DNA of 64,000 nucleotides from an uncultured Lachnospiraceae bacterium (GTDB lineage: Bacteria > Bacillota > Clostridia > Lachnospirales > Lachnospiraceae), in the NCBI GenBank assembly GCA_902781895.1, contig CACZLA010000005.1, positions 1-64,000 on the forward strand, read 5' to 3'. The notes under the pieces were generated by a model that worked only from the letters and a program-made list of their open reading frames with translations, was not told where the DNA came from and made no database searches. This document shows, one piece after another, positions 1,622 through 19,274 of the stretch. The position numbers were made by a program, and so were the translations under genes. Each line of letters opens with the position of its first letter. The stretch's first letter is position 1.

Positions 1622-2203
1622 ATGAGTTTACACAAGATAATAGACTTAACAGAAGCTGACTTTGGCTGTGAGGAACATTTAGATGGACCTCATGCAGTTC
1701 TGGTTTTTGAAGATGGTACCAGACGCGAGGTTTCCGAAAAGTGGATATCAGATAATAAAATAGAAGAAGGAAAATCTGTTTGGATTAAAGATGATAAAAC
1801 AATAATCAAGGCAATCAATGTAGTTGCAGCAGTTATTCGTCATGGTGATAAGATATTTGCAACGCAGCGCGGTTATGGTGATTTTAAAGACAGATGGGAA
1901 TTTCCGGGAGGAAAGATTGAACCCGGAGAAGATCCTAAAGAGGCACTTGTCAGAGAGATAAAGGAAGAACTGGATACTGAGATAAAAGTAGGAAACCTTA
2001 TAAAAACAGTAGAGACAGATTATCCCACATTTCATATAACTATGCATGTTTACTGGTGCGAAATAGTAAAGGGTGAACTGACGCTTCTGGAGCATGAGGC
2101 GGCTAAGTGGCTTGAAATTGATTCAAAGCTTCCAACAGCGGTAGACTGGCTGCCGGCTGATCTGGAAGTGATTTTAAAGTTATTAGGTGATGAAGTTGGA
2201 TAA
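1622..2203 (+). CDS. NUDIX hydrolase, MutT-like nucleoside triphosphate pyrophosphohydrolase
   Basis: The protein has 193 residues. The first 55 or so form a small N-terminal domain (HAVLVFEDGTRREV region). A MutT-type NUDIX domain follows from about residue 65, with the box GGKIEPGEDP...REIKEEL near residues 98-120, matching Gx5Ex7REUxEE. Such enzymes hydrolyse oxidised or unusual nucleoside triphosphates (for example 8-oxo-dGTP or CTP types) to the monophosphate. The start is ATG 1622 with GGAG at 1611-1614. NUDIX genes of this type often stand beside or within DUF3427 helicase genes, so the DUF3427 remnant just upstream is probably its former partner. The substrate cannot be told from sequence. 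Confidence 0.9.
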   Translation: MSLHKIIDLTEADFGCEEHLDGPHAVLVFEDGTRREVSEKWISDNKIEEGKSVWIKDDKTIIKAINVVAAVIRHGDKIFATQRGYGDFKDRWEFPGGKIEPGEDPKEALVREIKEELDTEIKVGNLIKTVETDYPTFHITMHVYWCEIVKGELTLLEHEAAKWLEIDSKLPTAVDWLPADLEVILKLLGDEVG

Positions 2204-2472
2204 AATAATTAGATTTGGATGGATAGCACTTTTGCTTGCGATGGTTGGCGATATTGTCATTCAAAAGTGATGAGGGTGCTACAGGAATTGTAAGTATCAT
2301 TTGTTTTGTTATTGCTATGGCTTTCTTTGTTTTGTTTGTGATGTCTGATAAACCGGAGTTCTCTGATACGATTATAGATAATGAGGGATTATGGCAAAGG
2401 TTTAATCTGATATTTATGTATGTGCCACTCATTATGGTCGCTATCAGGCAGATGAAGATTGGTAGGGATTAA
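2190..2472 (+). pseudogene. DUF998-type membrane protein with an internal deletion
   Basis: From ATG 2190, overlapping the end of the NUDIX gene, one frame reads a typical N-terminal membrane segment (FGWIALLLAMVGDIVI) and stops at 2268-2270. Another frame, open from 2236 to 2472, gives the C-terminal part: SFKSDEGATGIVSI, a membrane helix, MSDKPEFSDT, and NEGLWQRFNLIFMYVPL. These are the two ends of one family of roughly 200-residue integral membrane proteins. The middle helices are missing and the junction lies near 2240-2262. The frame change makes a full product impossible. The 78-residue tail alone is unlikely to be functional. Confidence 0.7.
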
Positions 2473-2558
2473 GATGCCATAAAACTTGTGGTTGCAGAAA
2501 TGGTTGATGGTGCAAGGTTCGGGGTATTGAGGCGTTTTAGGATAAATAGGAGATAAAA

Positions 2559-3104
2559 ATGAAGGCATTGATCATAAATTGCAGTCCTGTTCGTACAGGG
2601 GCAACTGCTGAAATAGTTAAGTTAGTTTCAGAACAGTTATCAAATAGATATAGTGTTAAAAGTATTTGCATAGATGATTATACCTATGCTTTTTGTAGAG
2701 GTTGTCGTTCATGCCATAGTACAGCAAAATGCGTTATGAGAGATGCAACGGTCATCGAAAATATAATGGATGAGTATGATGCGGCGGATGTAATTGTTTC
2801 GGTTTCCCCATCATATTGGGCTGATATTCCCGGGCAGTATAAGGCATTTATAGACAGATGCACGCCCTGGTGTGATACACATGAACCACATGCGTCGATT
2901 AGGGAAGGCAAGAAGGGATATTCGGTTGCTCTCAGAACAGGCTCGGGTATGCATGAGTGCGACAGGATAATTCAGAGTATTGAGCACTTTTATGGGCACT
3001 TACATATTGAATGCTCCGGACACCTCGGACTTACATCAATTGAGTATAAGGATAATGTTGAACCGAGGAAAAAAGAAATAATTGAATTTTGCAAGAGCAT
3101 ATAA
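2559..3104 (+). CDS. Flavodoxin-like iron-sulfur flavoprotein / NAD(P)H-dependent FMN reductase
   Basis: The protein has 181 residues. It opens with a flavodoxin fold start, ALIINCSPVRTGATAEIV, whose SPxxxGxT loop binds the FMN phosphate. A CRGCRSCHSTAKC cluster at about residues 46-58 has the Cx2Cx2Cx5C spacing known from iron-sulfur flavoproteins. The ADVIVSVSPSYWADIPGQYK segment is the second flavin loop, followed by the conserved FIDRC. It is expected to be a cytoplasmic electron-transfer or reductase protein. AGGAG lies 8-9 bases before ATG 2559. It is followed after 27 bases by a flavin-oxidase-like gene, probably in the same transcript. Confidence 0.85.
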   Translation: MKALIINCSPVRTGATAEIVKLVSEQLSNRYSVKSICIDDYTYAFCRGCRSCHSTAKCVMRDATVIENIMDEYDAADVIVSVSPSYWADIPGQYKAFIDRCTPWCDTHEPHASIREGKKGYSVALRTGSGMHECDRIIQSIEHFYGHLHIECSGHLGLTSIEYKDNVEPRKKEIIEFCKSI

Positions 3105-3131
3105 CTTTCAGCTTAAACTTCGAGGGAGAGG

Positions 3132-3617
3132 ATGAGTTATTCAACAAATATGAGAAGAAATGACAGAGAAATAACAGACAAAACTTTAATTAAACAATTT
3201 ATTGCAAAAGAACGGATTATTAGAATTGCATTCTATGATAATGGCGATCTGTATATAGTTCCGCTTAATTATGGATTTATACATGAGAATGACAAATATG
3301 TTTTCTATTTTCATGGAGCTAAGGCAGGTCGAAAATACGAACTTAGCAAATCCTCACCTAGTGTGGGATTTGAAATTGATGGTGCATATGAATTATTAGA
3401 GGCTGATGTTGCGTGTGATTATTCAGCTAAGTTCCAAAGCGTTATTGGTACGGGCAGGCTATCAATAGTTGAAGATGATGTAGAAAAGATAAAAGGATTA
3501 AATGCCTTAATGAAACATATTTCTGGAAAATCTGAATGGAGTTTTTCTAAAGAAATGGTTGATGCAGTTGCGGTTTTTCGTTTAGAGGTTGAGAAACTTT
3601 CATGTAAGGCAAAGTAA
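3132..3617 (+). CDS. Pyridoxamine 5'-phosphate oxidase family (NimA-like) flavoprotein
   Basis: The protein has 161 residues. It contains the family's split beta-barrel motifs: MRRNDREITD at the start, the YIVPLNYGF strand, YFHGAKAGRK, VGFEIDGAYEL, and YSAKFQSVIGTGRLSIV. Members bind FMN or a related cofactor; NimA-type relatives reduce nitroimidazoles, but most have unknown substrates. GGGAGAGG precedes ATG 3132. It shares a likely transcript with the upstream flavoprotein, so the two may act together in redox chemistry. A partial relative of the same family lies at 1016-1185, suggesting an old duplication. A strong terminator follows. Confidence 0.85.
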   Translation: MSYSTNMRRNDREITDKTLIKQFIAKERIIRIAFYDNGDLYIVPLNYGFIHENDKYVFYFHGAKAGRKYELSKSSPSVGFEIDGAYELLEADVACDYSAKFQSVIGTGRLSIVEDDVEKIKGLNALMKHISGKSEWSFSKEMVDAVAVFRLEVEKLSCKAK

Positions 3618-5565: not shown

Positions 5566-8500
5566 ATGGGAGAAAGCACCAATGGAAAAAATGCTCCAAT
5601 AACCTTTGGAGAGATAGCGTTGGCACTTGCTGCAGATTATGACAGCATTTTTGTTATTGATGCAGATGATGACAGTTACGTGGAGTACCTTGCACAGGGC
5701 GATGATAAAGAGCTTGTTAAAAGAGCGTCAGGCGAAAATTTTTATACGGATGTTATAAGAGATTGTCGTGAGCAGGTTTATCCTGATGATCAGGACTTTT
5801 TTATAGCTTCCTTTAAGAAGGAAAAAGTAACCGAGATACTTAAAACGGGAAAGTCCTTTTCTCTGAATTACCGTCTGATGGTGGATGGTAATCCTTTGTA
5901 TTACTACCTTAAGACCATCAAGGGTGTTGGAAATAAGGTAATAATCGGTGTAAGAAATGTTGATAAGCAGACGAGAAGAGAGATAGATGCGAAATCCCAG
6001 CTTGAGACCTACAGTCATATAGCGGGGGCTCTTGCCAGTTGTTTTGAGGTTATCTATTACATCAATATTCAGAATGGTAATTATATTCAGTACAGCTCCA
6101 GTGATGGATATTCGAAGCTGGGGACAACTATAAAAGGTGATGATTTCTTTTTAGATGCAGCGAGAGATATCAGAAAATATATTCACCGGGATGATATGGA
6201 AACTGTTCTGTCTGAAATGGATAAGACAAGGTTTCTTCATAATCTTGAGGAAACCGGTATGCATACCTTTGAGTACAGACAGCAGCTTGGCGATGAAATG
6301 CGTTATGTATCTACAACTGTAGTACGTCCGAAAAATGATGTGGATCATATCGTTATGGGTGTATTGAATGTGGATGCACAGAAAAAACGTGAGCAGTCCA
6401 TTATCAAAGAAAATGAGATATTTGATGAGATAGCTATGGCGCTGGCTGCAAGGTATGAGGTTATATATCATGTTAATATCATAACCGATGAGTATGCGGA
6501 ATACAGTGCAAGTGAAAAGTATACCAGACTTGCTGTAGGAACCACCGGAAAGGATTTCTTTACAGATACCCGTAGAAATATGGAGCGGGATATATATCCG
6601 GAAGATCTTCCTATGATGATCAAGGCGATGAGTAAGGATTATCTGTTAAAGAACCTTGATGAATCAGGTAAAATATTCCTGAACTATCGTCTTATGCTGG
6701 ATGGACGTCCTCAGTATGTTACCCTTTTTGCAGTTCGTCCTAAGGAAGATTCAAATCATATTCTTGTTGCGGTTGCAAATGTTGATGCGGCAAAGCGTAA
6801 GGAAATGGAATTTGAAGCCGCTATTGATTCGGCTATGGATATGGCGAACAGAGATGCTCTCACCGGAGTAAAGAATCTTCATGCTTACACAAATTCTGTT
6901 AATCAGCTGGATGATTCTTTGAAGGATAAACAAATTGAAGACAATCCATTTGCCATAGGCGTATTTGACATAAACGGGCTTAAGCAGGTGAATGATACGT
7001 ATGGTCATAGTGCCGGAGATGATTTTATAAAAAGTGCGTGTGAGATAATATGCGAGATATATAAGCACAGTCCGGTCTTCAGGATAGGCGGAGATGAGTT
7101 TGTTGTTATCCTGAAAGGAAGCGATTACATAAGACGTGATGAGCTGTTTATAGAGTTTAAAAAGAAACAGAGAGAAAACAGAAAAAAAGGTGTTGTTACT
7201 CTTGCGGGCGGCATGTCGGATTTTAATCCGAAAATGGATGCATGTGTGCAGGATGTATTTAGGCGTGCCGACAGCCGTATGTATGAGTATAAGAAGATAT
7301 TTAAAGAATCTCAGGATGATGATGCCGGAGATGATGCATATCCTGAATCAAGACGTATCAAACTGGATAAACTCTTTGAGGCTTTCTCTATAGTCGCAGA
7401 AGGTACATACGTTTATCTTTGCGATATGAGATATGATGTTTCCAGATGGTCGAAGAATGCGGTTAATACCTTTGGACTGCCTGATGAATATATGTTCAAT
7501 GCCGGAAGTATTTGGGAGAAGAGGATACATCCTGATGATATTACGGTTTATCATACCGAGATAGATAATATCTTCCGAGGAAAAACCGTTGGACATGATA
7601 TGCAGTACAGAGCCAGGACACTGGAGGGGGATTACATCATCTGTACCTGTCGTGGAACTGTACTTATCGATGAGACCGGTGAACCGGAATATTTCGCGGG
7701 ATCCATACGTAATCACTCTATACAGGAGAATATAGATACCCTTACCGGACTAAGTAATCAGTACGGATTTCTTGAAACTCTTGATGAGAACATGAAGAGA
7801 GAAAAAGAGATGGAGATTATTCTTCTCGGTATAGGAAAGTTTGCTGAGTTTAATGATGTGTATGGATACCATTTCGGTAATAAGATACTTCAGAAATTCT
7901 CGCGTCAGCTTTATGAATTTGTTGGAAATACCGGAAATGTTTTCCGAATGGATGGAACTAAGTTTGTGGTAATGTTCAATACATTTGAAACCGAGGAGAT
8001 ACATAAGAGATATGAAGAAATCAGAAGAATCTGCAGGACTGAATTTGTGGTGGATGGGAAAAATATCATCCTTGATCTGAATGCAGGTCATATCTCAGTT
8101 AAGAATTTTGATGTTGATCCCCAGACGGTATATGCGTGTCTGAGCTTCGTTTACAGTGAGAGTAAGCTCCATAGACAGGGAGATATAGTTGACTTTACGG
8201 ATGATCTGAATAACAACAATTCAGAACGGATCGAGCAGCTTCATTATATCCGTGGTTCTATCATGAAGAACTATGAAGGCTTCTACCTGCTTTATCAGCC
8301 GGTAGTGGATTCAAATACTGAAAAAATTGTGGGTGCCGAGGCTCTGATAAGATGGAAGAGCGAGAAGTACGGAACTGTTCCTCCTGATCAGTTTATTCCT
8401 CTTCTGGAGAAGGATCCCTTGTTCCCTGAACTGGGTGAATGGATTCTTGAGACAGCACTGAAGGATGCAAAAAGGATTATGCAGCTGGTTCCGGAATTTG

Positions 8501-9003
8501 TGGTAAATGTCAACCTCTCCTATACACAGCTGGAGAAGGGCGGATTTGTGGATATGGTGCTTCAGAAGCTTAAGGAACAGAATTATCCGCCGGATCATCT
8601 CTGCCTTGAGATTACGGAGCGATGCCGACTGCTTGATATGGGCATCCTGAAAAATGTTATCGATAATCTCAGAAGCTTTGGTGTTAAAATAGCACTGGAT
8701 GATTTCGGAACAGGATTCTCGTCCATCGGACTTGTTAAGAATCTTCCGTTTGATACCATAAAGATAGACAGGAGCTTCGTTCTCCGTATCGAAGAGGATG
8801 AGAAGGAGAAGGCTCTGGTTGAGAACTTCGTAAATGTTGCGGCTACATTTGGCGCAAAGGTATGCGTCGAGGGTATTGAGACTGAGGGAATGAAGGAAAT
8901 ACTTCAGAAGTATCGTGTACAAAGCTTCCAGGGCTACTACTATGCGAAGCCGATTTCCGTAGGCGAGCTGGAGACGTGGTTAGTGGGACAGGATGATAAG
9001 TAA
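5566..9003 (+). CDS. PAS-GGDEF-PAS-GGDEF-EAL cyclic-di-GMP turnover protein, 1145 aa
   Basis: Three similar sensory repeats of about 125 residues (roughly 15-128, 148-275, 288-415) share ALA..YxVIxxIN, DFFxDxxRDxR, YPDD or HRDDM, and NYRLMxDGxPxY motifs and look PAS-like. A complete GGDEF domain follows (DALTGVKN; GGDEF near residue 508), then a fourth PAS-like segment (605-725). A second GGDEF domain has the signature changed to MDGTKF. An EAL domain (about 900-1140) keeps AEALIRW, VNVNLS, LEITE, DDFGTGFSS, KIDRSF and VEGIE. The prediction is one active diguanylate cyclase, one inactive or regulatory GGDEF and an active phosphodiesterase. No membrane helices are visible. The start has GGAGAGGG before ATG 5566. 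The TetR gene behind it follows almost without a gap. Confidence 0.92.
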   Translation: MGESTNGKNAPITFGEIALALAADYDSIFVIDADDDSYVEYLAQGDDKELVKRASGENFYTDVIRDCREQVYPDDQDFFIASFKKEKVTEILKTGKSFSLNYRLMVDGNPLYYYLKTIKGVGNKVIIGVRNVDKQTRREIDAKSQLETYSHIAGALASCFEVIYYINIQNGNYIQYSSSDGYSKLGTTIKGDDFFLDAARDIRKYIHRDDMETVLSEMDKTRFLHNLEETGMHTFEYRQQLGDEMRYVSTTVVRPKNDVDHIVMGVLNVDAQKKREQSIIKENEIFDEIAMALAARYEVIYHVNIITDEYAEYSASEKYTRLAVGTTGKDFFTDTRRNMERDIYPEDLPMMIKAMSKDYLLKNLDESGKIFLNYRLMLDGRPQYVTLFAVRPKEDSNHILVAVANVDAAKRKEMEFEAAIDSAMDMANRDALTGVKNLHAYTNSVNQLDDSLKDKQIEDNPFAIGVFDINGLKQVNDTYGHSAGDDFIKSACEIICEIYKHSPVFRIGGDEFVVILKGSDYIRRDELFIEFKKKQRENRKKGVVTLAGGMSDFNPKMDACVQDVFRRADSRMYEYKKIFKESQDDDAGDDAYPESRRIKLDKLFEAFSIVAEGTYVYLCDMRYDVSRWSKNAVNTFGLPDEYMFNAGSIWEKRIHPDDITVYHTEIDNIFRGKTVGHDMQYRARTLEGDYIICTCRGTVLIDETGEPEYFAGSIRNHSIQENIDTLTGLSNQYGFLETLDENMKREKEMEIILLGIGKFAEFNDVYGYHFGNKILQKFSRQLYEFVGNTGNVFRMDGTKFVVMFNTFETEEIHKRYEEIRRICRTEFVVDGKNIILDLNAGHISVKNFDVDPQTVYACLSFVYSESKLHRQGDIVDFTDDLNNNNSERIEQLHYIRGSIMKNYEGFYLLYQPVVDSNTEKIVGAEALIRWKSEKYGTVPPDQFIPLLEKDPLFPELGEWILETALKDAKRIMQLVPEFVVNVNLSYTQLEKGGFVDMVLQKLKEQNYPPDHLCLEITERCRLLDMGILKNVIDNLRSFGVKIALDDFGTGFSSIGLVKNLPFDTIKIDRSFVLRIEEDEKEKALVENFVNVAATFGAKVCVEGIETEGMKEILQKYRVQSFQGYYYAKPISVGELETWLVGQDDK

Positions 9004-12884: not shown

Positions 12885-12917
12885 CGGTGTTTTCCCTAGG
12901 GAAGACACCGTTTTTTT
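12885..12917 (+). terminator. Rho-independent terminator after folP
   Basis: CGGTGTTTTCCC pairs with GGGAAGACACCG around a two-base turn and is followed by seven T. It separates folP from the transporter and partner-switching genes. Confidence 0.9.
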
Positions 12918-13037: not shown

Positions 13038-14756
13038 ATGAAAGGTTTTTGTGAAAAAAAATTCTATTCAATGTTTTTATCCGGCACTTTTACGAAGGCT
13101 GTTATGTACATTATGCTTCTTTGTGACAGCATAATTGCCGGTCACTATATCGGCGCATCAGGAGTGGCGGCGATAAATGCCATTACTCCCGTAACGGGAA
13201 TCGTTACATTTTTCGGGGATCTGGTTTCTACCGGTGTCGGAATCATTTATACGAGAGAAAGAGGGGCTATGCGGAAGGATCGAGCTGACGAGATTTACAG
13301 TCAGGGACTGATCATCAGCATAACCATCGGATTAATCTCGGCCATTACGATTTTTTTGATTCAAAATGTCTATTTCAGTGTGAATGGAATTACAGGAGAG
13401 ATTCTTGGACAGTCTCTGAAATACTACCGGTTTCTTCCAATCAATGCATTCCTGACAATCGTTATCTTTTATCTTGAACAGATGGTATACAGCGACGGAG
13501 ACGAGCTTTGCAATAATATCTGTTATGTTTTCCAGATCGGCGGAAATATTGTATGCTCTATCGTGCTCGCGAAGTACTATGGTATGAAGGGAATCATATT
13601 AGGCTCTATCATAGGAAACGGCCTTGGTATTCTTACATGCTGCTGGCATTACTTCCGTAAGTGCAATACCCTTCATTTCGTATGGCATTTTTCGATTAAA
13701 GATTTCTTCCTTACTTCCAAATACAGCATTGTGGATTCATCGGTATATCTTTGCTGGGGACTTATGGACTATGTGATGATAGGTTTCGTCTCGGGACATT
13801 ACGGAGAATCAGGACTGATCACTCTTGCAGTTGTTGTAAGCCTGATTGAATTCAGTGTTGTTTTGGATGGAGTCGGTATGGCGATGCAGCCTCTCATTGG
13901 TACCTATTTTGGGGAGAAGAATCACCGGCTGATAAAAAGAGTTATGAAAGCGGCAATAAAGGCTGCTTTAGTTGAAGGTGTTGTCGCAACGTTACTTATA
14001 TGTATTTTTGCGAAACAATTTTGCGGCCTTTTCGGAATTAAAGGATCAGAGGCATTGGAACCGTCTATGCAAGCTATTCGGATTGTTTCAATCGGATTCA
14101 CTTTCTGTAGTGCAGTTTCCCTTATGACATCCTACTACATGCTCATAGACCGGATCAGAATGGCAACCTGTTTTGCCTGCTTGCAGAATGGTTTGCTTTA
14201 TATACTTCTGCCGATTTTAGGTTCGACACTTTTTGGAATAAACGGCATGTGGGTAGGATTTGTGATAGCGCCTGTCCTAACTCTGATAATTTCGTTGGGG
14301 TTTGTATATCTTCGCTTTGGGAATGATAATTTCCCATTCATTTTAAAGAGTATGGATTCAGAAATCGATGTCATAGATGACACGCTTACAACAGAAAATG
14401 TGGTGGCTCTTTCAAAAAAAGTCGGGAACAGTCTGGAAGAACACCAATATTCTCCGGCAGATGTAGCGAGGGTGAGGCTTTTTGTTGAGGAGGTTGGAAT
14501 TGCCATCATAGATAAGAACAGTCAGAAGAAGAAAGCTCCTTTGATTGAGTATTCATTATTCTATGAAGAAGATTCGGTTCTTATTATAGAGAGAGACTCC
14601 GGTGAGTTGTTTGATCTTACGAACCCGGACAATCCGATAGAGGCGCTCAATGTGTTCGTTCTGGACGCCCTTATGGAATCGCACAAGGAAAAGGCATATT
14701 TTGTAACCACAGGATATAATCGAAATATCATTCGTTTTCAAAAAGAGATAGCATGA
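13038..14756 (+). CDS. MATE family transporter with C-terminal RsbW-like ATPase domain
   Basis: The protein has 572 residues. Residues 1 to about 445 have the twelve helices of the MATE/NorM multidrug and toxin extrusion fold, with motifs such as DSIIAGHYIGASGVAAINA near the start. The region from about 455 to 572 is soluble and resembles the histidine-kinase-like ATPase fold of anti-sigma factors: ADVARVRLFVEEVGIAIIDKN in the place of the N box, and IERDSGELFDLTNP in the place of the G1 box. The key residues are degenerate, so it may bind a partner rather than phosphorylate. The 3' end (TGA 14754-14756) and the next ATG (14758) almost touch, which implies translational coupling. It is the first gene of a six-gene run with phosphatase, STAS and kinase partners. 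Confidence 0.85.
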   Translation: MKGFCEKKFYSMFLSGTFTKAVMYIMLLCDSIIAGHYIGASGVAAINAITPVTGIVTFFGDLVSTGVGIIYTRERGAMRKDRADEIYSQGLIISITIGLISAITIFLIQNVYFSVNGITGEILGQSLKYYRFLPINAFLTIVIFYLEQMVYSDGDELCNNICYVFQIGGNIVCSIVLAKYYGMKGIILGSIIGNGLGILTCCWHYFRKCNTLHFVWHFSIKDFFLTSKYSIVDSSVYLCWGLMDYVMIGFVSGHYGESGLITLAVVVSLIEFSVVLDGVGMAMQPLIGTYFGEKNHRLIKRVMKAAIKAALVEGVVATLLICIFAKQFCGLFGIKGSEALEPSMQAIRIVSIGFTFCSAVSLMTSYYMLIDRIRMATCFACLQNGLLYILLPILGSTLFGINGMWVGFVIAPVLTLIISLGFVYLRFGNDNFPFILKSMDSEIDVIDDTLTTENVVALSKKVGNSLEEHQYSPADVARVRLFVEEVGIAIIDKNSQKKKAPLIEYSLFYEEDSVLIIERDSGELFDLTNPDNPIEALNVFVLDALMESHKEKAYFVTTGYNRNIIRFQKEIA

Positions 14757-14757
14757 C

Positions 14758-16350
14758 ATGAATATTATCATTTATGATTTTGGGACAAGCAGTGTAAAAA
14801 CATGTTTATTTGATATCGATTCCGGAATAGAGCTTTTAGCAAGTTCTACTGCATCATACTCCCTCTATATCTCCGATGACGGAGGCGCGGAACAGGATAC
14901 GGAAGAGTGGTGGGCAGCCCTTTGTTCCACTACACGGGATTTATTTCTGAAGTCCGATGCAAAACCGGAAGAGATTGAAGGAATGGCATTCTGTTCACAG
15001 ATGCAGGGAACCGTTTTTGTTGATGAGAAAGGAAATGCCTTAAGACGTCCGATGACTTATCTGGACCAGAAAGGAATGAAGGAATATAAAGAATGCATGG
15101 GCCGGGGAATCATTAAAGTATCCGGCTGCAGTCTTTATAAACTTGTTAAGAATCTCAGGGTCAACTACGCTGCTTCCACCAGTGCCAAGGATCCTGTCTG
15201 GAAGTATAAATGGGTGGAGAAAAATGAGCCGGAGGTTTTCGCAAAAACCTATAAATGGCTTGATATCTGTGATTACCTTGCAGGCCGTTGCACGGGAAGG
15301 ATCATTCGAACCGCCGATTCCGCATTTGCCACTTTTCTTTATGATACGAGAAAGGGAAAGGAAGGCTGGAATAAGGGGCTGGTGAAAATGTACAAGGTAA
15401 ACCCGAAGCATTTGCCTGAGATCATTGATAGTTCGGACCGGGCTGGCGAACTGACTGCCAAAGCTGCTGAAGATCTCGGACTGGTTGCGGGGATCCCTGT
15501 CTTCGGAGGTGGTGGAGATACAACTTTTGTAAGTATCGGTGCAGGATCAGCAAAACCGGGGAAGACACATATATATGTCGGGACCTCCGGTTGGGTTTCC
15601 ACATTTCTTGATTACCAGACGGTTGACATTAATGCAATGATCACCGGAGTTCTTTCGGCGAAGCACGGGTACTTCAATTATTATGCCGAGCTGGAAACCG
15701 CAGGAAAGTGTTTCGACTGGGTGATAAACCATCTCGCACTGGATGAGGTAGGTATTTATCTGAAAAACAATAAAGTGAAGGATGATTATGAGAGCAGTTA
15801 TACAAGCCTTTATGATTATATTTCCGAAGAAATAAATAAGGTTCCGCCGGGGGCGAACGGTGTGATCTTCACTCCGTGGATGCATGGAAACAGATGCCCT
15901 TTCGAAGATTCCAATGCGGGAGGAATGTTTTTTAATATCCGAATTGAGAACGGAAAGAGAGATATGCTCCGGGCTGTTTTGGAAGGAATCTGCTATCACC
16001 TTCGCTGGTTACTGGAATGCGAAGATGTGAAAGTAAAGACATCCGATCCCATCCGTTTTGTAGGAGGCGGTTCCCTGTCTCCGGTTACCTGTCAGATGCT
16101 GGCGGATATTACAGGGCGGAGGATTGAGACGGTTAATAATACGCAGGAGGTCGGTGCCATCGGAACGGCGCTTACCGTTGCTGCAGGGATCAGAGGCGTG
16201 GATGTTTTAGAACTTTCAGAGCAGCTTGTCAAAGTAAAACAGACATATCTTCCGAACACGGAGAATAAAGAAGTGTATGATCATAATTACAGGACTTTCA
16301 AAAAACTCTACAAGTCCAATGCAGCTATGTTTAAGGAAATGAATGGATAA
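14758..16350 (+). CDS. FGGY family carbohydrate kinase (xylulokinase-like)
   Basis: The protein has 530 residues. It begins IIYDFGTSSVKTCLFD, the phosphate-1 loop of the FGGY/actin-like ATPase superfamily. MQGTVFVDEKG and PMTYLDQKG mark the sugar-binding half. GGGGDTTFVSIGAG, IYVGTSGWVS and RFVGGGSLSPVTCQMLADI are the phosphate-2 and adenosine loops. HGNRCPFEDSNAGG is the FGGY signature region. The family phosphorylates pentoses, glycerol, gluconate and similar polyols. The gene sits between a transporter and signalling genes, with no isomerase or sugar uptake gene near it. Start and stop are nearly fused to the neighbour in front, and 17 bases separate it from the phosphatase behind. Confidence 0.9.
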   Translation: MNIIIYDFGTSSVKTCLFDIDSGIELLASSTASYSLYISDDGGAEQDTEEWWAALCSTTRDLFLKSDAKPEEIEGMAFCSQMQGTVFVDEKGNALRRPMTYLDQKGMKEYKECMGRGIIKVSGCSLYKLVKNLRVNYAASTSAKDPVWKYKWVEKNEPEVFAKTYKWLDICDYLAGRCTGRIIRTADSAFATFLYDTRKGKEGWNKGLVKMYKVNPKHLPEIIDSSDRAGELTAKAAEDLGLVAGIPVFGGGGDTTFVSIGAGSAKPGKTHIYVGTSGWVSTFLDYQTVDINAMITGVLSAKHGYFNYYAELETAGKCFDWVINHLALDEVGIYLKNNKVKDDYESSYTSLYDYISEEINKVPPGANGVIFTPWMHGNRCPFEDSNAGGMFFNIRIENGKRDMLRAVLEGICYHLRWLLECEDVKVKTSDPIRFVGGGSLSPVTCQMLADITGRRIETVNNTQEVGAIGTALTVAAGIRGVDVLELSEQLVKVKQTYLPNTENKEVYDHNYRTFKKLYKSNAAMFKEMNG

Positions 16351-16367
16351 GTTACGGAGGGGGCATT

Positions 16368-17771
16368 ATGAATAACAATCCCATCTTACGTGAAAATGAA
16401 GTGGAAGCAAATCGCATGATGGCGCTGGTACTTGATGTTACCTTCGTGATCGTGGCAATTACCTGGGTTTTATTCGAGATGGATGTTTTCTATATTCGGA
16501 TCCAGTATCGCGGGCTGATGATCTTTAACCTTGCTCTGATCGGTATTGTAAATATAATCAGTCGACATTTCAAATTTGAAAAAGTATGGATCAAATATTT
16601 GCAGATGACGGCTGCAATACTTGTTTATGCCGTGACCACCATGGCACTTACTTATAATGTACCTTTTTTGGCAGCAATTCCGATCCTTTTATCCATACGT
16701 TATTTTAATAAACTATATACGATAAACATTTCTATCATATCTGTCTTTGTATTCTTTATTGCCTATATATTAGGGGCAAATTACGGAATGCTGGATCTGA
16801 ACTTTGTTCAGTATGACCCCGGGACCACCATTGTCACAAACGATGCAATGTGGCTTGACGATGCCGTCAGAGACATCCCGTATGATAGTATGCAGATGGT
16901 TAAGAATACGATCATTTCAAACTACTTTGTCAAACTGTTACAGCTGGTCATCATTGCGGTGGCTTCCAGGCAGATGGTAGTTTGCTGTCAGGTTCTTCTG
17001 CAAAAGGAGAAAAAACTTGCGGAAGGTAACGCAAGGATCGGAGCTGAACTGGAAATGGCAGAGAAGATTCAGAAGGATATGCTGCCGAGCATCTTCCCTA
17101 CTTTTTCGGAAAAAGAGGAATTTGACCTTTACGCTTCCATGACGACAGCCAGAGAAGTCGGTGGTGATTTCTATGATTTTTTCATGATCGATGAAAACCA
17201 TCTTTGTTTCCTGATCGCCGATGTTTCCGGCAAGGGAATCCCGGCAGCCATGTTTATGATGACAGCCAAGACTATGATCAAGGATTATGCTCTGACAAGG
17301 ACAAATACGTCGGAGATTTTTACAGAGGTAAATGAGCGGCTTTGTGAGAATAATGAAGCCGGGATGTTTGCAACGGCATGGATCGGAATCCTGGATCTAA
17401 AAACGAGGATCTTACAGTTTACCAATGCAGGACATAATTTTCCTATAATCCAAAAAAAGGGAATGCCTTGTGAAGCGCTGGAAAAGAAACACGGTCTTTT
17501 CCTGGCCGGAATGGAGGGGGTCGTATACAGACAGGATGAGATGCAGCTTAATCCCGGGGATCGTATTTTGCTTTATACGGACGGGGTTACCGAGTCGCAT
17601 AATCCCAAGAAGGAACTCTTCGGAGAAGAACGTCTGATGAATATTCTTAACCGTACCGATGGTGAAAAAGGAGAAACTGTGCTTTCGGGAATCTTAAATG
17701 AAGTAAAGACATTTGAGGCGGGAGTGGAACAGTTTGATGATATTACAATGTCGATTCTGACATTAAAATAA
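16368..17771 (+). CDS. Membrane-bound SpoIIE/RsbU-type PP2C serine phosphatase
   Basis: The protein has 467 residues. An N-terminal membrane region holds about six helices (residues 20-135 and 185-205). A short coiled linker (LLQKEKKLAEGNARIGAEL) leads to a PP2C phosphatase domain from about residue 225. It keeps the metal-binding motifs REVGGDFYDFF, IADVSGKGIPAAMFM, GMFATAWIG, FTNAGHNFP, LLYTDGVTES and the final QFDDITM. Enzymes of this class remove phosphate from serine on STAS-domain anti-anti-sigma proteins, and exactly such a gene follows 20 bases behind. The membrane region may sense an unknown signal. ACGGAGGGGG lies before ATG 16368. Confidence 0.93.
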   Translation: MNNNPILRENEVEANRMMALVLDVTFVIVAITWVLFEMDVFYIRIQYRGLMIFNLALIGIVNIISRHFKFEKVWIKYLQMTAAILVYAVTTMALTYNVPFLAAIPILLSIRYFNKLYTINISIISVFVFFIAYILGANYGMLDLNFVQYDPGTTIVTNDAMWLDDAVRDIPYDSMQMVKNTIISNYFVKLLQLVIIAVASRQMVVCCQVLLQKEKKLAEGNARIGAELEMAEKIQKDMLPSIFPTFSEKEEFDLYASMTTAREVGGDFYDFFMIDENHLCFLIADVSGKGIPAAMFMMTAKTMIKDYALTRTNTSEIFTEVNERLCENNEAGMFATAWIGILDLKTRILQFTNAGHNFPIIQKKGMPCEALEKKHGLFLAGMEGVVYRQDEMQLNPGDRILLYTDGVTESHNPKKELFGEERLMNILNRTDGEKGETVLSGILNEVKTFEAGVEQFDDITMSILTLK

Positions 17772-17791
17772 AACAAGCAGGAGGACAGAAA

Positions 17792-18094
17792 ATGGAACTG
17801 GAAATGAAAACTAAAAAAGATGGAAAAAATATGGAAATTATTTTAATTGGGGAAATAAATACGAATACCGCCCCGGAACTTAAGACACTTTTTGAAAATG
17901 AACTGGATCCTTCCGGGGAGCTTACACTGGATTTTAAAGACTGTGATTTTGTCTCATCCGCAGGACTCCGTGTTCTTTTAAATACATTTAAGAGTATGAA
18001 GAGTTCCGGTGGTCAGATGAAGTTCCTGAATATCGGGCCGAATTTCAAAGAGGTACTTTATATAACCGGACTGGATGCGGTTTTCCATTTATAA
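17792..18094 (+). CDS. STAS-domain anti-anti-sigma factor (SpoIIAA/RsbV-like)
   Basis: The protein has 100 residues, the usual size. Typical motifs are IILIGEINTNTAPEL, LDFKDCDFVSSAGLRVLL and ITGLDAVFHL. One of the two serines in FVSSAGLR (about residues 56-57) is the expected phosphorylation site. By family rule the unphosphorylated form binds the RsbW-like kinase and frees that kinase's target; the SpoIIE-type phosphatase upstream would regenerate it. AGGAGG lies 8-9 bases before ATG 17792. Confidence 0.93.
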   Translation: MELEMKTKKDGKNMEIILIGEINTNTAPELKTLFENELDPSGELTLDFKDCDFVSSAGLRVLLNTFKSMKSSGGQMKFLNIGPNFKEVLYITGLDAVFHL

Positions 18095-18129
18095 TGATTC
18101 AAATACCCTCTGAAAGATGAGATATTTAT

Positions 18130-18756
18130 ATGAATGTATACGATTTTGACGGTACGATCTATTATCCGGATTGTGCATTAAACTTTATGTTTTGGTGTTT
18201 AAGAAGACACCCTTCTTTGTTCTTTACGTATGTACCGAAACTGATAAAATGTGGGATTCAATATAAACGAAAAAAGATTCCCAGATTTATTTTTGAGCGG
18301 ACATTTTTCAGTTTTCTTTGTAAGGTTGATGATTTTGATGTGCAGATAGAGAAATTCTGGGATAAGGCCATAAAAAGAATGTCTGCGTGGTATCTGGCAC
18401 AAAAACGACCTGATGATCTGATCATCAGTGCTTCTCCAAATTGCATCATCGAGCCGATTGCCAGAAGACTCGGTGTTAATTTTGTTGCAACAGAGTACGA
18501 TCGTGAAGTTGGGGCTTTTGTTGACAATCTGATGTTTGCAAGAGAAAAAGCCGCATACATTTTCGACCAGGGATTTCCGGAGATCGAGAATTTCTATTCC
18601 GACTCTTTAGCAGATACTCCGATGGCTTTGTGCGCGGAGAAAGCACATCTGGTAACACATAAGGCACAGGTGGTTGAGGATTGGCCAAAACTGGATACGG
18701 AAACACTAAAGAAGGTATATGAAAAAATAGATTCAGGCTGGTCGGTTCACTTATAG
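18130..18756 (+). CDS. HAD superfamily phosphatase (HAD-IB-like)
   Basis: The protein has 208 residues. Motif I is YDFDGTIYYPD at residues 3-13, with both catalytic Asp. Motif II is LIISASPNCII, motif III the Lys in the AREKAAYIF region, and motif IV YSDSLADTPM. The order matches HAD-IB phosphoserine-phosphatase-like enzymes and related lipid-phosphate phosphatases. The hydrophobic and basic cap (FFTYVPKLIKCGIQYKRKKI) suggests a membrane-near substrate. It lies between the STAS gene and the kinase gene, so it is part of the same operon, although phosphatases of this type are not part of known partner-switching sets. It may act on the product of the FGGY kinase. Confidence 0.85.
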   Translation: MNVYDFDGTIYYPDCALNFMFWCLRRHPSLFFTYVPKLIKCGIQYKRKKIPRFIFERTFFSFLCKVDDFDVQIEKFWDKAIKRMSAWYLAQKRPDDLIISASPNCIIEPIARRLGVNFVATEYDREVGAFVDNLMFAREKAAYIFDQGFPEIENFYSDSLADTPMALCAEKAHLVTHKAQVVEDWPKLDTETLKKVYEKIDSGWSVHL

Positions 18757-18776
18757 GAAAAAGGAAATTAGTGTAA

Positions 18777-19196
18777 ATGAAAGAACTCCATGTTAATTCT
18801 AATGTTGAGAATATTCCGACAGTGAAGAACTTCGTCTGTTCCGAACTGGAAAGACTCGGCTGCACGGAAAGGCTTGTGATGCAGATGAAGATGGCCGTGG
18901 ATGAACTGTTTGCAAATATCAGTTTTTATGCTTACGATTCAGAATCCGGACCGGTTACCGTACTATTTGACTACGAAGAGGAGTCCTCGACGGCCATTCT
19001 TACTTTCATCGATGAAGGAAAGCCTTATAATCCCCTGGAAGCTGAAGAACCGGATGTTGAACTTGAGGGAGAACTTCGCCCTATCGGGGGGCTTGGTATC
19101 TTTCTGGTTCGAAATCTAATGGATGATATGCTGTATGAGTATAAAGACAGACAAAACATATTAACCTTAAAAAAGAATACAGAAATTCTATTTTGA
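18777..19196 (+). CDS. RsbW/SpoIIAB-like serine kinase, anti-sigma type ATP-binding protein
   Basis: The protein has 139 residues and forms a compact HATPase fold. The N box reads AVDELFANISFYAY, the G1 box FIDEGKPYNPL, and the G2 region IGGLGIFLVRNLMDDMLYEY. All key residues are present, unlike the related domain at the end of the MATE protein. By family rule it phosphorylates the STAS protein encoded at 17792 and holds a partner inactive. In B. subtilis that partner is a sigma factor, but none is encoded in this cluster. It is the last gene before the zinc operon promoter. I see no separate terminator unless the palindrome at 19228-19274 serves as one. Confidence 0.92.
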   Translation: MKELHVNSNVENIPTVKNFVCSELERLGCTERLVMQMKMAVDELFANISFYAYDSESGPVTVLFDYEEESSTAILTFIDEGKPYNPLEAEEPDVELEGELRPIGGLGIFLVRNLMDDMLYEYKDRQNILTLKKNTEILF

Positions 19197-19203
19197 ATGA
19201 TGC

Positions 19204-19274
19204 TTGACAAAATAATAATCCAAGAGTAAAATGAAAATCGTTTTCAAATTGAATTTGAAAACGATTTTCATTTT
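19204..19274 (+). promoter_or_regulatory. Promoter overlapped by a perfect 47-bp palindromic Fur-family operator
   Basis: TTGACA (19204-19209) and TAAAAT (19227-19232) are separated by 17 bases. From 19228 to 19274 there are two 23-base arms that are exact reverse complements around one central G. Each arm contains a 15-base Fur-type box of the 7-1-7 kind, TGAAAATCGTTTTCA (19232-19246) and its inverse (19256-19270), centred 24 bases apart. Binding would cover the -10 and the transcription start. It lies just upstream of the Fur-family gene and the zinc transporter genes and is most likely the zinc-responsive autoregulatory site. The same palindrome could also work as a terminator for the upstream operon. 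Confidence 0.85.

Follow-up and report, generated by a model that had tools for sequence, protein, structure and literature searches.

The question raised by this locus is what a partner switch may control when no sigma factor is encoded beside it. Partner switching is known to control sigma factors and, lately, enzymes such as diguanylate cyclases. In the window, the whole stretch of 64,000 nt that was analysed, a six-gene operon carries the three component types of such a switch together with a MATE-type transporter, and the C-terminal tail of the latter is predicted to adopt an anti-sigma-kinase fold. The evidence points tentatively to the transporter as the output of the switch.

Organization of the operon

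The features of the operon and its borders are as follows.

12885–12910, + strand: hairpin resembling a terminator, located between folP and the operon, 11 pairs of which 6 are GC, then a T run (pattern match only)
13038–14756, + strand: MATE-fold transporter with a C-terminal RsbW-like tail, 572 aa (Pfam MatE and AF2 model)
14364–14741, + strand: tail domain of the transporter, residues 443–568, anti-sigma-kinase fold (predicted structure)
14487–14504, + strand: degenerate N-box EEVGIA of the tail, residues 484–489 (alignment)
14595–14597, + strand: Asp520, the G1-box Asp kept in the tail (alignment)
14758–16350, + strand: FGGY-family carbohydrate kinase, 530 aa (Pfam FGGY_N/FGGY_C)
16368–17771, + strand: SpoIIE/PP2C phosphatase, 467 aa (Pfam SpoIIE)
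17792–18094, + strand: STAS anti-anti-sigma-type protein, 100 aa (Pfam STAS)
18130–18756, + strand: HAD-IB-type phosphatase, 208 aa (Pfam HAD)
18777–19196, + strand: RsbW-like kinase, 139 aa (Pfam HATPase_c_2)
19228–19274, no strand assigned: palindrome of 20 pairs between the operon and a Fur-family gene (pattern match)

An earlier note on this DNA described six co-directional genes with gaps of 1–35 bases. This is borne out, as all six ORFs are found on the + strand at these coordinates, separated by 1, 17, 20, 35 and 20 bases. The palindrome is a predicted Fur/Zur-type box or terminator, judging by its position before the Fur-family gene. Elsewhere in the window, outside the operon, a 1145-aa ORF at positions 5566–9003 resembles a GGDEF-EAL protein by reading.

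The FGGY kinase is xylulokinase-like, yet it scores under the XylB cut-off (TIGR01312, 283.5 bits vs 380.25). It is also well under the cut-off for the autoinducer-2 kinase LsrK (NF008187, 148.3 bits vs 528). The HAD phosphatase has a Pfam HAD match of 5.8e-9 and a DFDGT motif, and is under the cut-off of TIGR01490.

The transporter and its tail

The membrane part of the transporter matches MatE at 1.4e-20 (Pfam). The AF2 model has a pLDDT of 84.6 and its top PDB match is the MATE chain 3vvr_A (E 2.6e-13); the protein is under all four NCBIfam cut-offs listed for it. The tail has a sub-threshold match to HATPase_c_2 (E 0.017, 15.6 bits vs a cut-off of 27.4; Pfam), and a profile comparison with RsbW gives a probability of 47.9 and an E value of 1.9e-4. 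The top PDB matches of the tail model are RsbW and SpoIIAB chains, which rank over DesK-type histidine kinases, and several of them were solved with a STAS partner bound (6m37, 1th8 and 8ih8). Structure prediction, which gives an RsbW/SpoIIAB-like fold, thus agrees with the earlier proposal that the transporter tail is of the kinase fold.

The putative ATP site of the tail is degenerate. Ala489 occupies the position of Asn47 in the RsbW of the operon. The N-box Asn is absent from all 49 orthologue rows of alignment A1 (Thr in 43, Ala in 4, Ser in 2). A1 as a whole is a chosen subset, with 41 and 39 sequences from two lists of 120 matches each plus 7 of the 80 named orthologue loci. It is likewise absent from 34/34 rows of alignment A2, and is present in 39/39 rows of the C10-type tailed MATEs. 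Such a loss is not confined to this orthologue family, as only 11 members of a mixed set (37 tailed MATEs) keep the residue. Part of the G2 box is also lost. Glu484, Glu485 and Asp520 are retained across the 49 orthologue rows despite the loss of the Asn, and Asp520 is also kept in the 39 C10-type rows. Five tail residues (Glu484, Arg519, Asp520, Gly559 and Asn561) are invariant in the 88 aligned orthologues and C10-type paralogues. The tail as a whole diverges faster than the membrane part, with a mean pairwise identity of 66.5% vs 81.4%. A lost Asn and a partial G2 box in a fold that is kept are more in line with a port for binding than with another kinase.

The tailed transporters form a large family: of 7996 candidates that were scored, 478 reach E 1e-3 or better, and both domains are present in 116 of the best 120 matches, as counted by eye.

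The switch proteins and sigma factors

The phosphatase has a SpoIIE match of 8.5e-48 over residues 276–465 (Pfam) and carries the motifs DFYD, DVSGKG and DDIT, which we take to be the metal-binding Asp motifs. Its N-terminal half is hydrophobic on reading and the protein is probably membrane-bound. The single-domain STAS protein matches STAS at 1.6e-15 (Pfam) and is above the cut-off of TIGR00377 (69.6 bits vs 53.45). It aligns with RsbV (6m36_B, 1.1e-9), where Ser56 falls on the DSTG serine, presumably the acceptor in RsbV. The RsbW-like kinase has matches to HATPase_c_2 (4.5e-22, Pfam) and to RsbW 6m36_A (7.6e-4). Its N, G1 and G2 boxes are intact (Glu43, Asn47, Asp79 and a GGLG box), and Glu43, Asn47, Asp79 and Gly104/105/107 are invariant in 19 aligned rows.

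No sigma factor is present within the operon, as determined from the ORFs and Pfam. This absence, pointed out earlier, extends to relatives: a sigma-like ORF lies within 5 kb of the MATE gene in just 2 of the 80 named orthologue loci, so that no conserved sigma gene goes with the cluster in these loci. The genome (2.35 Mb, 92% complete) has three sigma-70 region-2 matches, which by size and reading are RpoD and two ECF-sized proteins. A sigma factor of SigB/SigF size is therefore absent both from the operon and from these three matches. RsbW-type proteins usually hold sigma factors of the SigB/SigF size class, to which ECF-sized ones do not belong.

The same genome, at about 92% completeness, contains one complete STAS protein, one standalone RsbW and 11 SpoIIE domains, so that the operon switch may also take signals from the other ten. 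Among 38 genomes of the genus, a strong RsbW-like match (E <=1.6e-20) is found in 10/10 that have a MATE orthologue, and an RsbW-like match (E <1e-15) in 18/28 that lack one (one-sided p 0.028).

Proposed mechanism

The reading put forward here, with somewhat less than even confidence, is that STAS moves between the RsbW-like kinase and the MATE tail according to its phosphorylation, which would place transport under partner switching. The RsbW-like kinase would phosphorylate STAS at Ser56, and the SpoIIE protein, which probably sits at the membrane, would dephosphorylate it on sensing its signal. Unphosphorylated STAS would then bind the pseudokinase tail, and the transporter would be opened or closed. 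The substrate of the FGGY kinase and HAD phosphatase may be the small molecule that is transported, or a precursor of it.

Linkage of switch genes with tailed transporters

Same-strand SpoIIE, STAS or RsbW genes are found within 5 kb in 26/80 named orthologue loci by tblastn and in 25/80 by profiles. The corresponding counts for other tailed MATEs are 10/25 and 9/25, where the 25 loci exclude L055 (split MATE) and L058 (no MATE). The tail-less MATE controls have 1/20 by both methods; these were hand-picked from the same genus and some are close to contig ends. Partner-switch genes accompany tailed MATEs more often than tail-less ones, with Fisher p values (tblastn/profiles) of 0.012/0.021 for the orthologues and 0.012/0.027 for the other tailed MATEs, although the profiles and queries were built from loci near tailed MATEs and divergent switch genes near the controls may be under-detected. 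When at least two switch genes are required, the difference (16/80 vs 1/20) is not significant (p 0.18). Opposite-strand matches among the 80 loci are few (SpoIIE 3, RsbW 2, STAS 0). Loci L039–L050 were excluded from the count because several duplicate the contigs of named loci (L039/L095, L040/L093, L041/L096, L042/L097, L044/L117 and L045/L099).

The linkage is not obligatory. Flanks of 3 kb or more on either side are available for 42 orthologue loci, and in 25 of these (tblastn) or 26 (profiles) no switch gene occurs within 5 kb. A tree was built for the window and 78 of the 80 loci; L137 has a stop in its translation, and L127 was dropped by hand although it could have stayed. Well-supported branches record at least 6 changes of linkage, and the best tree 9. 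The 9 changes compare with a mean near 13.6 when linkage is shuffled; linkage is thus clustered on the tree and the 26 linked loci are not independent.

These counts bear on a different reading, that the target of STAS and RsbW is a regulator, an enzyme or an ECF-type sigma factor encoded elsewhere, with the operon shared for co-expression only and the tail vestigial or purely structural. The 25 or 26 loci that have no linked switch gene would be expected from it, and the two ECF-sized sigma factors of the genome and the faster change of the tail agree with it as well. The near absence of linkage in the tail-less controls and the five invariant tail residues are harder to reconcile with it, and ECF-sized proteins are not of the size class usual for RsbW-type partners. 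Overall this reading is somewhat unlikely.

The earlier note proposed a search for the six families in one order. The families do recur together, and the gene set is found in other bacteria too, but in differing orders, and the order of the window is rare and not fixed. In the 31 loci whose flanks extend for 5 kb in both directions, 12 show linkage, each with an order of its own; this count replaces one of 23 orders for the 26 linked loci, a figure inflated by contig ends. The commonest combination is MATE, HAD and FGGY. Among the 80 named loci, L108 has the order MATE-FGGY-SpoIIE-STAS-HAD-RsbW and L100 has the same order without a detected RsbW. A strict six-gene unit was rejected for the rarity of the exact order, and replaced by a core with variable switch genes.

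The switch genes are not linked equally. STAS is linked to the MATE gene in 20/80 loci and RsbW in 7/80 by profiles, a count that omits matches in ORFs of 520–700 aa and so also drops fused kinases; the tblastn counts are 20 and 10. This favours STAS over RsbW as the partner of the tail. It also weighs against a second alternative, in which the RsbW-like kinase docks on the tail at the membrane and is freed by STAS, the transporter still being the output. Three loci (L051, L159 and L166) have STAS near a tailed MATE and no RsbW match in the flanks examined. The predicted RsbW/SpoIIAB fold of the tail is compatible with such pairing, dimerisation may survive the loss of an ATP site, and a heterodimer of RsbW1 and RsbW3 offers a precedent (PMC10950880). 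Binding of the tail to RsbW is nevertheless unlikely.

A further idea was that MATE-linked STAS genes are specially without an RsbW of their own, and hence forced onto the tail. The comparison did not discriminate and the idea was dropped. No RsbW is found within 5 kb of the MATE in 14/20 MATE-linked STAS genes; in a rough comparison, 38/71 standalone STAS genes listed for the genus have no RsbW in the surrounding 5 kb. The 71 genes are those of 73 rows that qualify by open frame among the matches listed, recounted by eye; G008:C36 and G023:C31 were missed, and neither has a listed kinase on its own contig.

Least probable, and quite unlikely, is a transporter acting as the input, in which substrate or ion binding shifts the tail and its binding to STAS or RsbW alters STAS phosphorylation with an output elsewhere in the cell: the single complete STAS and standalone RsbW of the genome could serve as a hub and in the sister tailed-MATE family the N-box Asn is present and HATPase_c_2 is matched in full, but SpoIIE proteins seem to fill the sensor roles already, and an obvious linked output gene is missing, as families other than HAD, FGGY and those of the switch occur in at most 9/80 loci.

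Control of the transporter by STAS may extend beyond this operon. A sigma-free class of partner switches in rumen-type Clostridia, in which STAS shuttles between RsbW-like kinases and pseudokinase MATE tails and so directly controls transport, with related modules controlling other transporters such as FeoB and MFS proteins, can be suggested, though as a generalization it is rather doubtful. If the transporter is the output, a familiar bacterial circuit would have been put to a new use. It would imply fast post-translational control of transport via Ser phosphorylation, and would give a role to the large MATE fusion family.

Comparison with known systems

By title and abstract, neither a fusion of MATE with an anti-sigma kinase nor a partner switch acting on a transporter was found in the literature searched, which lies mostly outside subscription papers. 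The membrane part of the transporter is that of the MATE efflux family (NorM/DinF/PfMATE) by Pfam and by fold. MATE chains from the fold search are about 406–486 residues, whereas the operon transporter has 572, the extra part being the tail. The RsbU/SpoIIE, RsbV/SpoIIAA and RsbW/SpoIIAB switch is represented by all three component types, and the operon proteins match it in metal-binding motifs, the aligned Ser and ATP-site residues. It differs in that the linked candidate target in the operon is a transporter.

SiaABCD of Pseudomonas aeruginosa likewise combines a kinase with a PP2C phosphatase and a STAS-like protein, and is reported to control an enzyme by direct binding (PMC8457831; PMC7647112). 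There SiaC, the STAS-like protein, binds and activates the enzyme SiaD (PMC8457831), which is a precedent for the regulation of an enzyme by such a protein. In contrast, no diguanylate cyclase is present among the six genes of the operon (Pfam). RsbW3 of M. smegmatis, an RsbW homologue that acts via a heterodimer with RsbW1, is described as a binding partner within a partner switch (PMC10950880). RsbW3 is a separate protein in a SigF circuit, whereas the operon homologue is fused to a transporter. The SulP/SLC26 anion transporters are also transporters bearing a domain of the partner-switch set (PMC8256260). Their fused domain is STAS itself; in the operon MATE it is the complementary kinase fold that is fused, and STAS is encoded separately.

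Operon layout and borders

The six open reading frames of the operon (13038–19196, forward strand) lie exactly where the earlier note had placed them, with gaps of 1, 17, 20, 35 and 20 bases, and their identities are borne out by Pfam as MatE, FGGY, SpoIIE, STAS, HAD and HATPase_c_2. The operon starts 177 bases downstream of the end of folP, and a Fur-family gene follows 125 bases after its end. An Rfam scan of the operon borders gave no family at gathering score. Two features are present there:

12885–12910, terminator-like hairpin between folP and the operon start
19228–19274, long palindrome between the operon end and the Fur-family gene

Farther upstream (window positions 5566–9003) is a 1145-aa protein with, by reading, a PAS-GGDEF-EAL make-up; three genes separate it from folP.

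The tail of the MATE transporter

Judged from its sequence, the C-terminal tail of the MATE transporter is probably not an active kinase. The N-box Asn is replaced in all 49 orthologue rows of the tail alignment (Thr in 43, Ala in 4, Ser in 2), and a second alignment agrees, with Asn absent in 34 of 34 rows. Glu484, Glu485 and the G1 residue Asp520 are invariant across the 49 rows. A sister family of tailed MATEs keeps the Asn in 39 of 39 rows, which count as one case because all are relatives of one query. It takes in a paralogue on contig C10 of the window's own genome (the C10 MATE), with a tail that matches HATPase_c_2 in full (43.8 bits). Among other tailed MATEs the picture varies, the Asn being kept in 11 of 37 (first alignment).

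The fusion of MATE and tail is widespread: PF01554 and PF13581 are both present in 116 of the 120 best matches of the C10 MATE (counted by eye), and one among the 120 is named by its source "efflux pump/anti-sigma regulatory factor". One tailed paralogue (G017:C20:68848–70138) is in two separate frames of 249 and 205 aa in the G017 assembly.

Switch proteins in the genome

The operon STAS protein aligns with RsbV and has Ser56 opposite the DSTG serine. The RsbW-like protein keeps Glu43, Asn47, Asp79 and the GGLG box, all invariant in 19 aligned rows, and the usual motifs are present in the SpoIIE phosphatase. The window's genome as analysed (2.35 Mb, 92% complete) has 11 SpoIIE domains, three sigma factors (RpoD plus two of ECF size), one complete STAS protein plus a 48-aa remnant without the N-terminal half (G000:C6:64084–64263), and eight HATPase_c_2 matches. 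One of the eight is of standalone RsbW size; beyond this one and the C10 MATE, six sit in frames of 398–949 aa. The operon therefore has the only complete STAS/RsbW pair seen in this genome. Four SpoIIE phosphatases are in tandem at G000:C1:101284–107186. Of the ten SpoIIE proteins outside the window, one also has 5TM-5TMR_LYT; the other nine give no further Pfam match at E 1e-3.

Linkage of switch genes to the MATE

Named genomes were scanned and yielded 131 relatives, of which the best 80 (70–82% identity) were used. The source records name Clostridia, Lachnospiraceae and Oscillospiraceae among them, and many of the samples come from the rumen or elsewhere in the ruminant gut; cultured members include [Clostridium] aminophilum, Ruminococcus flavefaciens MC2020 and Butyrivibrio sp. 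AC2005. L161, L140 and L149, recorded as Spirochaetales or Dehalococcoidales bins, are perhaps mis-binned.

Linkage was counted by tblastn on the same strand within 5 kb of the MATE. In the 80 loci, HAD is linked in 39, FGGY in 37, SpoIIE in 20, STAS in 20 and RsbW in 10; any switch gene (SpoIIE, STAS or RsbW) is linked in 26 and two or more in 16. Opposite-strand tblastn matches within 5 kb number three for SpoIIE, two for RsbW and none for STAS. Any switch gene is found by tblastn at 10 of 25 other tailed MATEs and at 1 of 20 tail-less MATEs of the same genus (L188); profile searches give 25/80, 9/25 and 1/20 for the three sets. With loci taken as independent despite kinship, the Fisher p for orthologues against tail-less controls is 0.012 (tblastn) or 0.021 (profiles) for any switch gene, and 0.18 for two or more.

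Of the co-occurrence in one order for which the earlier note suggested a search, part is seen: switch genes recur near MATE orthologues, but their order is not fixed. Flanks of 5 kb on either side are available for 31 loci; switch genes are linked in 12 of these, each time in a different order. A tree was built from 79 MATEs, of which 41 (the window and 40 loci) have usable flanks. The best tree requires nine linkage changes, and counting well-supported branches only leaves six or more; linkage is still more clustered than with shuffled labels. Such recurrence in different orders, with repeated change on the tree, argues for a working connection of switch and MATE. Against this, 25 (tblastn) or 26 (profiles) of 42 loci with at least 3 kb on both sides have no linked switch gene. 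Among 38 same-genus genomes, a strong RsbW-like match is present somewhere in 10/10 with the MATE orthologue versus 18/28 without (one-sided p 0.028). The switch may therefore work in trans; three more orthologue genomes (G051, G054, G056) lie outside this comparison.

A conserved sigma gene in relatives, which would have run counter to the switch proposed in the earlier note, was not found within 5 kb of the MATE orthologues in the 80 loci. Only L111 and L123, both without linked switch genes, have a weakly sigma-like ORF in this range, at distances of 53 and 365 bases, respectively.

Other switch and transporter neighbourhoods

FeoB is a further kind of transporter with partner-switch genes nearby; this is seen in 4 of 20 loci that were chosen because of their kinases. 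FeoB-type genes adjoin or sit near standalone RsbW-like genes at L205:1381–4697 and L209:1698–4694 (assigned by Pfam) and at L211:1851–5497 and L207:1–4841 (homologues); STAS is also present at L205 and L211. At L195:3–4479 (MFS by Pfam) and L201:3–3876 (homologue of the L195 protein), a SpoIIE-RsbW fusion protein comes after an MFS protein. A 1034-aa EamA-dCache-HAMP-SpoIIE fusion (L071:6160–9261), which unites a transporter-like domain and a phosphatase domain in a single chain, is near a tailed MATE, RsbW and STAS. STAS fused to a putative aminoglycoside/choline-kinase-type domain (by reading) is found near tailed MATEs at L105:490–1677 and 1984–3177, L137:4566–5717 and L069:2770–4290.

An NRPS-like protein is clustered with a tailed MATE and switch genes at L044:116–8464, L047, L048, L049 and L050; it is adenylation-carrier-condensation by Pfam in L047, the others being homologues. 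The L044 cluster has a GH3 enzyme, and those of L044, L048, L049 and L050 a 459-aa protein, the L044 copy of which matches nothing in Pfam at E 0.01. Very large proteins (2201–3044 aa) matching the AMP-ligase query adjoin tailed MATEs at L059, L063, L064 and L070 and are likely encoded by NRPS genes.

Proposed mechanism and comparison with known systems

We infer that STAS would be held phosphorylated by RsbW, and that a signal at the SpoIIE protein would lead to removal of the phosphate. Free STAS would then bind the pseudokinase tail of the transporter and alter transport. Binding of the tail to RsbW instead, for which the RsbW1-RsbW3 heterodimer is a precedent (PMC10950880), is less likely: STAS was chosen as the partner because it is linked to the MATE in 20 of 80 loci versus 7 (profiles) or 10 (tblastn) for RsbW.

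The linkage of FGGY and HAD, each in nearly half of the loci, suggests that the transported compound or its precursor goes through a phosphorylated state. NRPS-like and GH3 enzymes adjoin tailed MATEs in some relatives, which hints that a small molecule is synthesised and exported.

The components of the operon are already known. What would be new is the coupling of such a switch to a transporter via a pseudokinase tail, with a proposed STAS-tail contact; no report of such a coupling was found in searches of an open-access library. The nearest functional precedent for the proposed STAS action on the transporter is SiaC/SiaD, where SiaC activates SiaD through direct binding (PMC8457831).
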